DNA of 22,634 nt, taken from a virus. Where the stretch lies: the IMG/VR virus record IMGVR_UViG_3300032288_000591, positions 1 through 22,634 of that record; one strand, written 5' to 3'. This document shows positions 1,270-20,386 of this stretch, piece after piece. Under the pieces are notes generated by a model. The model saw only the letters and a program-made list of their open reading frames with translations. It made no database searches and was not told where the DNA came from. Each line of letters opens with the position of its first letter. Within the stretch, counting starts at the first letter, position 1. Both the position numbers and the translations under genes were made by a program.

Positions 1270-2808
1270 ATGGCAGAACAGCTTCTAACGACTACAATTC
1301 AAGCTCCGGGCTTTATGGGTCTTAACCGTCAAGACTCTTCAGTGGGTCTTGACAATGGGTTCGCTACGGTAGCTACCAATTGTATTATTGATAAATTTGG
1401 ACGTATCGGTGCTCGTAAGGGATGGAGTCCTGCACATTCTAGTCTAGGAGCTTTATCAGGGGATGTAGAAGGTATTGGTGAATTAATTGCTTTAGATGGA
1501 ACTTCCTACATCGTAGCCACTGGAGCCAATAAATTATTTAAATTAGTAGGTTCCACCCTTACAGAGTTAACCTATGGAGGAGGTGGTACAGCTCCTACCA
1601 TTACCGCTAATCACTGGCAGATGGCTCCCTTGCATGGATGCCTGTATCTGTATCAGGCTGGACATGATCCCTTAGTGTTCGATCCTGCGGTCAGCACAAC
1701 ACAGTACCGTAGGATCTCTGAGAAGTCAGGCTATGTAGGAACGGTATCACATAATAACTGTGTAATAAGTGCTTATGGTCGGATATGGACTGCAAACAAC
1801 AACTCTCAAAAGAGTATCATCCAGTTCTCTGATCTTCTGTCAGGACATATTCTGAGCACAGGCACTGCAGGTACTCTAGACATCTCCGAGATCTGGCCTG
1901 CAGGTTCTGATGAGATTATGGCCTTAGCTGCTCATAACGGATTCTTGATGGTCTTTGGTCGTAGGCAGATTCTGGTGTATTCAGGAGCTACAGATCCGAA
2001 CGAGCTAAGATTAGCAGACACGATTAACGGTACAGGCTGTGTCGCTAGGGATTCTGTAGTTGCCACAGGTGGAGATATTGTATTCCTCTCAGACACAGGC
2101 GTTAGATCTCTGATGAGAACTATTCAAGAGAAATCTGCTCCGATGAGGGAACTTAGTATCAATGTCAAGGATGACCTGATCGAGGATGTTTTAACTGAAA
2201 CAGCCTCCAAGATCAAGGCAGTGTACTCCGATAAAGATGCTTTCTACTTGTTGTCTTTACCGACAGTCAATACAGTCTATTGTTTTGATATGCGCTCTCA
2301 GCTTCAAAATGGTGCTGCAAGGGCTACAACGTGGAATAACATTACACCGACAGCCTTCTTCTATACCCGTAGTAAGGATTTGTTACTAGGTAAAGAAGAT
2401 TATATCGGAAAATATCAAAATAATCTTGACAACGCTGCCACTTATCGGTTACAATATTATACCAACTACTTTGACTTTGGTTCTCCAACAGCATTGAAGA
2501 TCCTCAAGAAGATCAACATGACTCTGATCGGTGGACAAGGTGCTGATATGGTTGTCAAGTACGGATTCGACTACAGTCCTAGTTTCTTGTCTCAATCTGT
2601 CAGTTTAGGTGCTGTGACTATCGCAGAATACGGGATAGCAGAGTATAACATCGGACAGTATACTGCTGGTGTTGTCTTTGATAACCAGAAGATTCAAGGT
2701 AGTGGTTCAGGTAATGTGCTCCAGATAGGATTGGAAGCTGAGATAGATAGTTTTGAACTATCCTTACAGAAATTGGATTGCTATGTTAAAGCAGGACGAA
2801 CGAGGTAA
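1270..2808 (+). CDS. Tail nozzle / stabilisation-type structural protein
   Basis: A 512-aa protein with GGAG seven bases before the ATG, 22 bases after the adaptor stop. The start (APGFMGLNRQDSSVGLDNGF) followed by ATNCIIDKFGRIGARKGW is typical of the beta-propeller proteins that form the nozzle under the adaptor ring in short-tailed phages (P22 gp10 or SU10 nozzle type). Repeated short beta-strand motifs such as YIVATGANKLFKL and FLMVFGRRQILVYSG recur through residues 70-300, as expected for propeller blades. There is no transmembrane segment. It should be a hexameric tail component that closes the DNA channel. A sigma70-like promoter sequence lies inside the gene at 2426-2455. Confidence 0.75.
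   Translation: MAEQLLTTTIQAPGFMGLNRQDSSVGLDNGFATVATNCIIDKFGRIGARKGWSPAHSSLGALSGDVEGIGELIALDGTSYIVATGANKLFKLVGSTLTELTYGGGGTAPTITANHWQMAPLHGCLYLYQAGHDPLVFDPAVSTTQYRRISEKSGYVGTVSHNNCVISAYGRIWTANNNSQKSIIQFSDLLSGHILSTGTAGTLDISEIWPAGSDEIMALAAHNGFLMVFGRRQILVYSGATDPNELRLADTINGTGCVARDSVVATGGDIVFLSDTGVRSLMRTIQEKSAPMRELSINVKDDLIEDVLTETASKIKAVYSDKDAFYLLSLPTVNTVYCFDMRSQLQNGAARATTWNNITPTAFFYTRSKDLLLGKEDYIGKYQNNLDNAATYRLQYYTNYFDFGSPTALKILKKINMTLIGGQGADMVVKYGFDYSPSFLSQSVSLGAVTIAEYGIAEYNIGQYTAGVVFDNQKIQGSGSGNVLQIGLEAEIDSFELSLQKLDCYVKAGRTR
2426..2455 (+). promoter_or_regulatory. Candidate sigma70-type promoter inside the nozzle gene
   Basis: TTGACA (2426-2431), an 18-base spacer, then TACAAT (2450-2455). The predicted start of transcription is near 2462, so it would feed the fibre-anchor, ejection and lysis genes. 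The bases TCGGTTACAAT over and before the -10 box also occur in the minus-strand candidate at 16264-16293. It lies in coding sequence, so chance is possible. Confidence 0.45.
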
Positions 2809-4047: not shown

Positions 4048-5265
4048 ATGGCAACACAATTACCTAGTTTATTTGGCACTCAGATGGAACCTGAGCAGAT
4101 GGCAGAGGCTCGTGCTCTGCAGTTTGCTCAGATGTCACCACAGCAGCAGATGCAATACAACATTTACCGGAATGTTAATCGTTTAGGTCGTGGTGCTGCC
4201 AGTCTGTTAGGTGCTGATGTTCAAGATCCTGCCATGCGTAAGGCTTCTCAGATTCGTCAGCTGGCTTCTCAATTCGATACGAACACTCCTGAAGGACTGA
4301 TGGAGTTTGCTAGTGCTCTGAGACAGATCGATCCTCAGTTGGCTATGCAGGCTGCTCAGCAGGCTCAGGCTATGATGCAAGTTCAAGCTAATTTAGGAGC
4401 TACACGTGCTCTTGAACAGCAAAGGTTACGTGAAAAAGTATCTGCCGATCCGTTTGAACAGCTTGTACGTTCGGGCAAATATACCCCTGAAAGTTTAGCA
4501 GTTTATCGTGAATCTGGAAATGTTGCTGATTTAAAACTACAAGAAAAAGAAACTAAAATTAATTATGGTGCTGAAGCGGATCGTGCTGCAAAAGCTAATT
4601 TTGGAAAACTATTTAGTGAATTAACTCAATCAGAAGCTAAAATAATTGACGATCTTTTAGAAACTCGTGGTGTAACTAAGGCTAAAGCAGGTGCTGGAAA
4701 AACAGAAGTAACTCTTCCGGGCGTACAAAAAGCAGGTGATGTTACAGGTCTTCGAAAAGATTTACAAGCAATTACTAGACCTTATCAGGATCAGGCAGAC
4801 GCTGCTGGAGATGCCATTGATTTAGCAAATTTAGCATTGAAAAATAATAACTTTGCTGCTGTGTCTAGTTTATCACGTAGTCTTGCTAAAGCAGCCGGTG
4901 AAACACAGCTTTCAAATAAAGATGTAGAAGCATTTGGAATTGATCCTTCTTTAGTTGGTCGAGTTGTTGATACTGTGTCTCGTTTAGCTCAAAGCCGACC
5001 TTCGGTGGATACTTTGACTAAACTTCGTCAACTTGCTGAAGCTTTAAAGAAGAAAGCTGAGTCTCGTATTGCTATTGAAGAAGAACAGCTTCAAGAAACT
5101 GCCCGTGTTAGCGGTCAATTCACAGAGAATCAAATAAATACTGTGTTTCGCCGTAGACCAAAGACACCAAAATTATCTTTTAATTCTATTGAAGAAGCAG
5201 AAGCAGCCAATCTTCCAAGAGGAACTAGAATTACGATCAATGGTCGTCCAGCAGAGGTTGAATAG
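4048..5265 (+). CDS. Internal virion protein (ejection-type)
   Basis: A 405-aa protein, start preceded by AAGGATAACATAA. Residues 1-130 are Gln/Ala/Met-rich helices (MSPQQQMQYN and QLAMQAAQQAQAMMQ); the middle (about 170-350) is charged helical sequence. The last 35 residues contain SFNSIEEAEAANLPRGTRIT, a small beta motif often found at the C-terminus of phage ejection proteins. Base composition drops to about 37 percent GC around 4560-4620, with more T- and A-ending codons than in the first third, so the gene looks like a composite. No catalytic motif is seen. By position it is the second of three internal virion proteins. Confidence 0.65.
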   Translation: MATQLPSLFGTQMEPEQMAEARALQFAQMSPQQQMQYNIYRNVNRLGRGAASLLGADVQDPAMRKASQIRQLASQFDTNTPEGLMEFASALRQIDPQLAMQAAQQAQAMMQVQANLGATRALEQQRLREKVSADPFEQLVRSGKYTPESLAVYRESGNVADLKLQEKETKINYGAEADRAAKANFGKLFSELTQSEAKIIDDLLETRGVTKAKAGAGKTEVTLPGVQKAGDVTGLRKDLQAITRPYQDQADAAGDAIDLANLALKNNNFAAVSSLSRSLAKAAGETQLSNKDVEAFGIDPSLVGRVVDTVSRLAQSRPSVDTLTKLRQLAEALKKKAESRIAIEEEQLQETARVSGQFTENQINTVFRRRPKTPKLSFNSIEEAEAANLPRGTRITINGRPAEVE

Positions 5266-15559: not shown

Positions 15560-15977
15560 CCAAGGATTCCTCAAACGGAGAATCATCAGTCTCTTCCGAT
15601 TGATAGACCTTCAACTCGGTAACAATCAACTTCTTGATGCTCGGGGATGCTCCGTACTTGGCTGACATCTTATGACGATAGCTGGTCACTAAGGCAGTAA
15701 CCTTCGTACCGTTACCGATCTTGGTAATATCCACCGGCTTACCGTCCTTGTCTACAGGTTCGAACACATACAGGCTCTTGCCTACAATGTACTTACCCAT
15801 CGTATCCTTCTCTTTAATCTGGATGCCAAGCTCTTTCAAAGCTTCGGCAGCTTTGTCTGAAAGATTACCGATGGTACACTCATACTTCTTGTTGTCTTCG
15901 TTAAACTTCGTGTTGAAGTTATTCATCCAGTTAGCCCAGAAGAGTTCGCCACCGATCTTTACAGGTTTCATATCCAT
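15546..15977 (-). CDS. Single-stranded DNA-binding protein, T7 gp2.5-like
   Basis: A 143-aa protein with an OB-fold-like body (GGELFWANWMNNFNTKFNED, KYIVGKSLYVFEPVDKDGKP, GTKVTALVTSYRHK) and an acidic tail (SEETDDSPFEESLDDVL) ending in a hydrophobic residue. This is the layout of gp2.5-type SSBs, whose tail contacts polymerase and helicase. The start at 15977 has AAAGGA seven bases upstream; a longer frame reaching 16043 would run into the tRNA and is rejected. It lies 36 bases after the tRNA 3' end, between polymerase and exonuclease genes, as expected for a replisome member. Confidence 0.85.
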   Translation of the reverse strand: MDMKPVKIGGELFWANWMNNFNTKFNEDNKKYECTIGNLSDKAAEALKELGIQIKEKDTMGKYIVGKSLYVFEPVDKDGKPVDITKIGNGTKVTALVTSYRHKMSAKYGASPSIKKLIVTELKVYQSEETDDSPFEESLDDVL

Positions 15978-16013
15978 TTCATTTTCCTTTAAGTTTGCTG
16001 CATTGCAGCGGGT

Positions 16014-16097
16014 TGGTGAGACTGGAGGGATTCGAACCCTCACGCAATAAGCGGCAGATTTTAAGTCTGCTGCGGCTACCGATTACGCCACAGTCTC
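16014..16097 (-). tRNA. tRNA-Leu(UAA)
   Basis: An 84-nt tRNA. The acceptor stem GAGACTG (16097-16091) pairs fully with CAGTCTC (16024-16018), followed by discriminator A and an encoded CCA (16016-16014). The anticodon stem GCAGA/TCTGC encloses the loop CTTAAAA with anticodon TAA at 16063-16061. The T arm is GAGGG-TTCGAAT-CCCTC, and the variable arm CGC-TTATT-GCG is long, as in leucine tRNAs. It reads UUA, a codon common in the AT-richer phage genes. Its 5' end overlaps the last 15 bases of the small gene upstream. Confidence 0.96.
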
Positions 16098-16235
16098 GCT
16101 GTTTTCAGTTTTCTGTTGCTCGGTGAACTGTGCCACGAGCTTCTGATGCAACGGAAAAGCACCAGACTCGGTAGGCAACTGCCCAATAACACGAACAATG
16201 AAGGCTGCTTCGTGATCTTCAAGTGTAAAAGTCAT
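16083..16235 (-). CDS. Small protein, 50 aa, running into the tRNA
   Basis: Found by reading the gap between the 66-aa gene and the tRNA. The ATG at 16235 has AAGGAG six bases upstream, the clearest ribosome site of this stretch; the stop TAA at 16083 lies inside the tRNA 5' end, so the last four codons are also tRNA sequence. The peptide begins MTFTLEDHEAAFIVRVIGQL and continues with a Gln/Lys-rich helix. This type (short, FTLE..EAxFI...GxLPTxxxxxPL..KL..Q) resembles small uncharacterised proteins of other phages. It follows a strong promoter candidate at 16264-16293. The function is unknown. Confidence 0.8.
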   Translation of the reverse strand: MTFTLEDHEAAFIVRVIGQLPTESGAFPLHQKLVAQFTEQQKTENSETVA

Positions 16236-16261
16236 TTCTATCTCCTTTTTTTGCGGTACAT

Positions 16262-16462
16262 CTATTGTAACCGAATTTTGTCTGTTTTGTCAAGGTCTTC
16301 GGCAACATTTTCCAAATATTCTTGTATTCCTGCTGCCACGGCCCAGATCGTCATCATATCAACATTATCTGTGATATTGACTTCGAAGCTATCTGTATAC
16401 AAATTTATTATAATCTGTCCTACGACATCGTTGTCAGTGTGTTTCTTTCCATGTTTTGCCAA
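16262..16462 (-). CDS. Small hypothetical protein, 66 aa, TTG start
   Basis: Starts with TTG at 16462, preceded by GGGGAG with a seven-base spacer, and overlaps the polymerase C-terminus by 29 bases; no ATG in frame gives a sensible length. The basic start (MAKHGKKH) is followed by a beta-like segment (VGQIIINLYTDSFEVNIT) and a helix (IWAVAAGIQEYLENVAEDLD). I do not recognise it. The rare start suggests low or coupled expression. Its 3' end contains the promoter at 16264-16293. Confidence 0.7.
   Translation of the reverse strand: MAKHGKKHTDNDVVGQIIINLYTDSFEVNITDNVDMMTIWAVAAGIQEYLENVAEDLDKTDKIRLQ
16264..16293 (-). promoter_or_regulatory. Candidate sigma70-type promoter before tRNA-Leu and SSB
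   Basis: Reading the minus strand: TTGACA (16293-16288), an 18-base spacer, TACAAT (16269-16264); transcription should start near 16257. It lies in the 3' end of the 66-aa gene and would drive the 50-aa gene, tRNA-Leu, SSB and the genes after them. The -35 box is a perfect match and the -10 box matches five of six. The bases TCGGTTACAAT recur in the + strand candidate at 2426-2455. Confidence 0.65.
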
Positions 16463-20151: not shown

Positions 20152-20204
20152 TTTAGACAAACCTTTACAATTGTTAAGACAAACAAAATTAAAGATACAA
20201 TCAT
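20148..20204 (-). CDS. Possible 18-aa hydrophobic peptide
   Basis: ATG at 20204, TGA at 20148, peptide MIVSLILFVLTIVKVCLK, a single membrane-like helix with a basic end. Its start overlaps the stop of the upstream gene (ATGA at 20204-20201) and its stop overlaps the start of the downstream gene (ATGA at 20151-20148). AAAGG lies ten bases before the start. Double coupling is the reason to list it. Against it: it is very short, and the start falls in a promoter-like -10 box. Confidence 0.45.
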   Translation of the reverse strand: MIVSLILFVLTIVKVCLK

Positions 20205-20386
20205 TGTACATTATCCTTTGTGATTCTGTCAATGGCTTTTTGAACATCCAGCATAATTGAATCGTAACCATTGGACACGATCAGCTGTGCGATGTCATCT
20301 ATGGTGGAATGATACCAACATTCAAACCTTATTTGCTCCTGTTCCTGCTCTGTCAATTCCAGTATGTAATCATCAAATGAAGACAT
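20201..20386 (-). CDS. Small hypothetical protein, 61 aa
   Basis: ATG at 20386 with AAAGGAATACTT upstream, a good ribosome site. The peptide is acidic and helical (MSSFDDYILELTEQEQEQIR, then TIDDIAQLIVSNGYDSIMLD). No metal site or membrane segment is seen and I recognise no family. It is the first gene after the AT-rich promoter region and so probably heads the primase-helicase transcript. Its stop forms ATGA with the possible 18-aa peptide. Confidence 0.75.
   Translation of the reverse strand: MSSFDDYILELTEQEQEQIRFECWYHSTIDDIAQLIVSNGYDSIMLDVQKAIDRITKDNVQ
20203..20232 (-). promoter_or_regulatory. Candidate sigma70-type promoter before the primase-helicase genes
   Basis: Minus strand: TTGACA (20232-20227), an 18-base spacer, TACAAT (20208-20203), with a start near 20196. 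It would give a leader of about 45 bases to the 88-aa gene and primase-helicase. It lies in the 3' end of the 61-aa gene and overlaps the possible 18-aa frame. Same boxes and spacing as the site at 16264-16293. Confidence 0.5.

Follow-up and report, generated by a model that had tools for sequence, protein, structure and literature searches.

The locus described here raises the question of how a phage protein gene can end inside a tRNA gene on its own strand, and whether maturation of the tRNA governs synthesis of the protein. The window, the whole stretch of DNA analysed, is the IMG/VR virus record IMGVR_UViG_3300032288_000591, 22634 bases in length, which carries T7-type replication genes (DNA polymerase, primase-helicase and exonuclease) on its minus strand.

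Organization of the locus

The minus-strand order is a 66-aa ORF, a promoter-like site, ORF50, tRNA-Leu(UAA), a hairpin and a 143-aa gene (Table 1), the last of which was assigned to no family in family searches. A sequence-only reading had placed the stop of ORF50 15 bases inside the tRNA, and the coordinates of the two genes bear this out; the ribosome site that it called excellent is also present and was graded good. The 3′ end of ORF50 reads ...GAA AAC AGC/GAG ACT GTG GCG TAA, where the solidus marks both the 5′ end of the mature tRNA and a codon boundary of the ORF50 frame, and that reading was thus right that a cut at this point removes the stop codon, leaving ...Glu-Asn-Ser without one. 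The TAA is the sole stop in the frame until the end of the downstream gene, and read-through would therefore fuse ORF50 and the downstream protein across the tRNA. Short hairpins of differing sequence lie 3′ of the tRNA in several relatives (L005, L021, L007, L236 and L240), and in L071, L096 and L098, which have no tRNA here, the same downstream gene is preceded by a hairpin.

Table 1. Features of the ORF50–tRNA-Leu locus in the window
Feature	Coordinates	Strand	Remarks
Upstream small ORF, 66 aa from TTG start	16262..16462	-	Stop TAG and -10 hexamer have one base in common
Putative sigma-70-like promoter	16264..16293	-	-35 TTGACA 16293-16288, 18-nt spacer, -10 TACAAT 16269-16264
Shine-Dalgarno AAGGAG	16242..16247	-	
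ORF50, 50-aa protein gene	16083..16235	-	ATG start; stop TAA inside tRNA
Stop TAA of ORF50	16083..16085	-	tRNA positions 13-15 (D arm)
tRNA-Leu(UAA)	16014..16097	-	Encoded CCA (16016-16014); ARAGORN, Rfam, fold
Perfect short hairpin GCTGC-AAT-GCAGC	15997..16009	-	Interval between tRNA and next gene
Downstream gene, 143 aa	15546..15977	-	ATG at 15977; alternative GTG start of same frame inside tRNA

ORF50 is a conserved protein gene

ORF50 has no match among Pfam, PHROG or NCBIfam models, and assignment by structure was abandoned because the predicted fold, two helices with a mean pLDDT of 71.5, was judged too weak for searching. Homologues are nevertheless found in many phage contigs, the 179 hit loci grouping into 73 distinct contexts, of which 21 have an adjoining tRNA, 51 do not and one is truncated. 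Fourteen residues are invariant among 12 aligned members, and the C-terminal tail differs across relatives. The core is under purifying selection on amino acids, with dN/dS values of 0.08-0.13 in comparisons of the window with seven relatives and 0.23 for L014, the most distant for which a value could be computed (that for L030 could not). On this sequence evidence ORF50 is a genuine, conserved small phage protein gene.

The stop codon lies 5-20 nt before the tRNA in 18 of the 21 contexts that have both genes. The 15-nt overlap occurs in the other three, all of one clade, namely L001 (identical in context to the window), L021/L059 and L085/L242. The window and four contigs, representing two genotypes, are thus the only sequences that have it, and the position of the stop is not conserved. 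Divergence between the window and L059 is about 2-15 % in the majority of 100-nt blocks that align well, the alignment being poor at 17.2-16.4 kb owing to inserted sequence. ORF50 itself differs at three positions between these two genotypes, all of them synonymous (codons 41, 42 and 45; P~0.016 if changes were random), and a third overlap contig, L242, has a single amino-acid change, D7Y. Retention of the overlap in two genotypes with diverged surroundings may point to mild selection for it.

The tRNA and its internal TAA

ARAGORN identifies a single tRNA in the window, this tRNA-Leu(taa), which scores 59.5 bits against the Rfam tRNA model (cut-off 29) and has a fold z of -3.59; its cloverleaf, anticodon, conserved positions and covariance score are all those of a functional tRNA gene. 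The predicted fold of a long precursor still includes the cloverleaf.

The possibility that the tRNA was altered to supply the stop was rejected, since TAA at positions 13-15 occurs without overlap both in related phages and in bacterial tRNA-Leu. It is present in 7 of 51 distinct tRNA-Leu(UAA) sequences, the same 5′ tRNA sequence is found without overlap at nine loci (L236-L240, L243, L244, L246 and L247, although L240 has just 25 nt upstream of the tRNA), and it recurs in tRNA-Leu genes on 16 bacterial genome contigs, of which 12 bear the name Polaromonas or Burkholderiales. Judged from these comparisons, the borrowed TAA is one that the D arm contained beforehand.

Several other features of the tRNA may be recorded. 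Its D arm matches the tRNA-Leu(UAA) of Polaromonas and other Burkholderiales (L249-L264), a weak hint at host or origin. A tRNA-Thr lies directly 3′ of tRNA-Leu in L020, L037 and L079, and a tRNA-like stretch, judged by eye, directly follows it in L244. In L003, near 4333-4473, a tRNA-Leu is present for about its first 25 nt and then stops short, and a second promoter-like site comes after it at the end of the contig; one tRNA may have been exchanged for another here. Partial tRNA-Leu genes adjoin integrases in cyanophage and pelagiphage contigs, according to PMC3861242. The idea of an attachment site or tRNA-dependent lysogeny was set aside for the window, where the tRNA is whole, and a tyrosine integrase (PF00589) was found in none of 20 records, incomplete ones included.

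Promoter and transcription unit

The putative promoter upstream of ORF50 predicts a transcription start near 16257. The strict sigma-70-like pattern occurs three times in the window against 0.17 expected, the two other sites being at 2426-2455 (+) and 20203-20232 (-). It is present in 32 of 60 tRNA-Leu contexts, and 31 of the 102 strict hits over 80 loci fall no more than 300 nt before a tRNA-Leu. Where ORF50 is absent, a gap of 8-24 nt separates the end of the best promoter-like site from the tRNA downstream in 36 of 43 tRNA-Leu contexts, not all of these sites beating shuffles. Where both genes are present, the best site is usually 5′ of ORF50 and beats all 20 shuffles in 12 of 20 contexts, the remaining eight having no promoter that does so. 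For ORF50 without a tRNA the 20 shuffles are beaten in just 1 of 51 contexts, a contrast that is weakened by the presence of other phage groups in this set; in relatives of this kind, among them L046, L073, L075 and L069, the downstream gene directly follows ORF50. A promoter belonging to ORF50 itself is thus disfavoured, since the promoter accompanies the tRNA, though with the same reservation about the no-tRNA set, and its association with the tRNA in relatives would place ORF50 in the 5′ leader of the pre-tRNA.

In 8 (-35) and 10 (-10) of 60 tRNA-Leu contexts, the promoter hexamer has bases in common with the stop codon of an open frame at least 60 codons long. It is not safe to attribute the terminal ‘LQ*’ of the upstream ORF solely to the -10 hexamer, as L071, L072 and L074 retain it without a tRNA.

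Origin of the overlap

Contig L241, one of the 18 contexts without overlap, has the same first 47 tRNA bases as the window, and the stop of its gene is a TGA lying 20 nt before the tRNA. Aligned to it, the window lacks 35 nt between gene and tRNA and the old TGA is gone; L241 begins at the gene, so its promoter region lies outside the contig. A relative with separate genes and a change that removes the stop are therefore both at hand, as expected of an overlap produced by stop loss. A net shortening of 35 nt in the window lineage would have removed ORF50's own stop, the direction of change being the probable one because many relatives have separate genes. The two sequences form a clear before-and-after pair, in which a gene's own stop is replaced by one inside a tRNA.

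Phage genes that end inside tRNAs

A pattern search gave 68 viral tRNA-Leu genes of the TAA type; in eight of them an ORF of at least 45 codons ends at the same TAA (the contexts L272 and L315 look alike), and four of these ORFs have family support, as a radical SAM/SPASM protein (L286) or HNH-type proteins (L306, L313 and L294). A wider survey took in 333 viral loci and yielded 132 tRNA contexts in which an ORF on the same strand, 100 aa or longer and without other tRNAs, ends either inside the tRNA or no more than 100 nt before it. The ORF ends inside the tRNA in 24, no more than 20 nt before it in 35 and further away in 73, with starts taken leniently and some ORFs counted twice in the last class owing to tandem tRNAs; the sample is biased, having been drawn by tRNA-Leu patterns and as relatives of this phage, and some contexts are related. 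Seventeen of the 20 overlapping ORFs that were tested have a match to a PHROG family at 1e-3, and the ORF at L286:3056-4126 has a Pfam match instead. The sequence of tRNAs itself offers stops, with one at positions 8-10 in 379 of 744 distinct tRNAs and at 13-15 in 239, so that many frames entering a tRNA close early. These counts suggest that it is not rare for a phage gene to end inside a tRNA, and annotation that forbids overlap of genes with tRNAs would truncate or miss such genes.

Endonuclease-like genes (HNH, homing and other) account for 10 of the 20 tested ORFs that end inside a tRNA (L272, L273, L274, L278, L286, L299, L304, L306, L313 and L331) as against 2 of 18 controls that end before one. 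They seem over-represented among genes ending inside tRNAs, in a small and partly related sample in which L273 is counted through its second-best hit and hits to phrog_274, ‘endonuclease V’, are omitted.

Interpretation of the overlap

We consider it likely that ORF50 is a small gene lying between a host-type promoter and tRNA-Leu(UAA) that has lost its own stop and now ends at the D-arm TAA, the overlap being a tolerated compaction and translation normally preceding tRNA processing. The ORF50 message would be the 5′ leader of the pre-tRNA, transcribed from the sigma-70-like promoter; ribosomes close behind the polymerase would reach the TAA while little of the tRNA had been made, and RNase P, which requires a folded tRNA, would cut later and free it. 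The 5′ piece would then be a short-lived non-stop fragment and pass to the ribosome rescue systems of the host; in bacteria, tmRNA and ArfA rescue ribosomes from non-stop messages. The earlier statement that mRNA and tRNA cannot both be whole thus stands for the end products, but ribosomes could finish before the tRNA is complete or cut. Both the neutrality of the overlap and this order of events are what we infer.

The absence of any family match and the differing C-terminal tails could be taken to mean that the frame is a chance ORF or a decaying gene and that the tRNA alone matters, but a conserved core with dN/dS near 0.1, occurrence in 73 distinct contexts, 51 of them without an adjoining tRNA, and a promoter pattern and Shine-Dalgarno sequence both in place make this very improbable. 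The proposal of the sequence-only reading, that tRNA processing controls ORF50 or renders its mRNA non-stop, amounts to a regulatory switch in which protein comes only from uncut transcripts and ribosomes at the TAA delay folding of the tRNA. The cut site does lie inside the frame and between two codons, the arrangement is retained in two diverged genotypes, and comparable overlaps are seen in unrelated phage genes. Such control is unsupported and, in our judgement, decidedly unlikely, since in most contexts with both genes (18 of 21) the stop lies before the tRNA, the outcome that the sequence-only reading itself had named as refuting its proposal, and in the survey overlapping stops are rarer per nucleotide (24 over up to ~84 nt) than stops in the 20 nt before the tRNA (35), the opposite of what favoured coupling predicts.

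Selection for genome compactness may itself have driven the overlap, signals being packed into one another as they are where promoter hexamers share bases with stop codons. We regard this as unlikely: the 35 nt saved are few, and the majority of relatives carrying both genes lack this shortening, although in these data such selection is inseparable from neutral tolerance. A broader proposition, that conserved tRNA nucleotides are ready-made stops for upstream phage genes and that translation competes with maturation of the tRNA on a single RNA in a recurrent ‘translate first, then cut’ coupling, is quite unlikely on present evidence. Given the recurrence of such endings elsewhere in phages, the ORF50 overlap looks like a tolerated accident of compaction and not a proven switch. 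It nonetheless offers a simple system for studying how ribosomes and RNase P share one RNA.

Comparison with known systems

No bacterial or phage gene with its stop inside a same-strand tRNA was found in the titles and abstract openings of the open-licence PMC literature. Mohanty and Kushner reportedly described in 2008 bacterial transcripts that join an mRNA to a tRNA and are processed by RNase P, secG-leuU of E. coli being an example. Like secG-leuU, the window has a protein gene 5′ of a tRNA-Leu, presumably on one transcript, but overlap of stop and tRNA is absent from secG-leuU, as the title implies. In mitochondria, overlaps of mRNA and tRNA place the stop at the edge of an excised tRNA or within it, and polyadenylation can complete stops. 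The ORF50 stop likewise lies inside a tRNA that would be cut out, but completion of stops by polyadenylation is not known to us from bacteria or phages.

The available part of PMC9004378 holds nothing bearing on overlap of genes with tRNAs. In mycobacteriophage Fionnbharth (PMC10865867) a tRNA-Lys overlaps gene 37, and as in the window a phage tRNA with a promoter of its own overlaps the 3′ end of a protein gene. There, however, the two are on opposite strands and share no transcript, and the tRNA has a role in lysogeny, whereas no tyrosine integrase was found in the 20 records analysed here. Same-strand overlapping gene pairs can form when the upstream gene is lengthened at its 3′ end (Fonseca et al. 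2013, PMC3887535); in those pairs, as in ORF50, the stop of the upstream gene is lost and one inside the next gene is used, but the next gene in the window is a tRNA, and the borrowed stop lies in an RNA that is folded and cut out.
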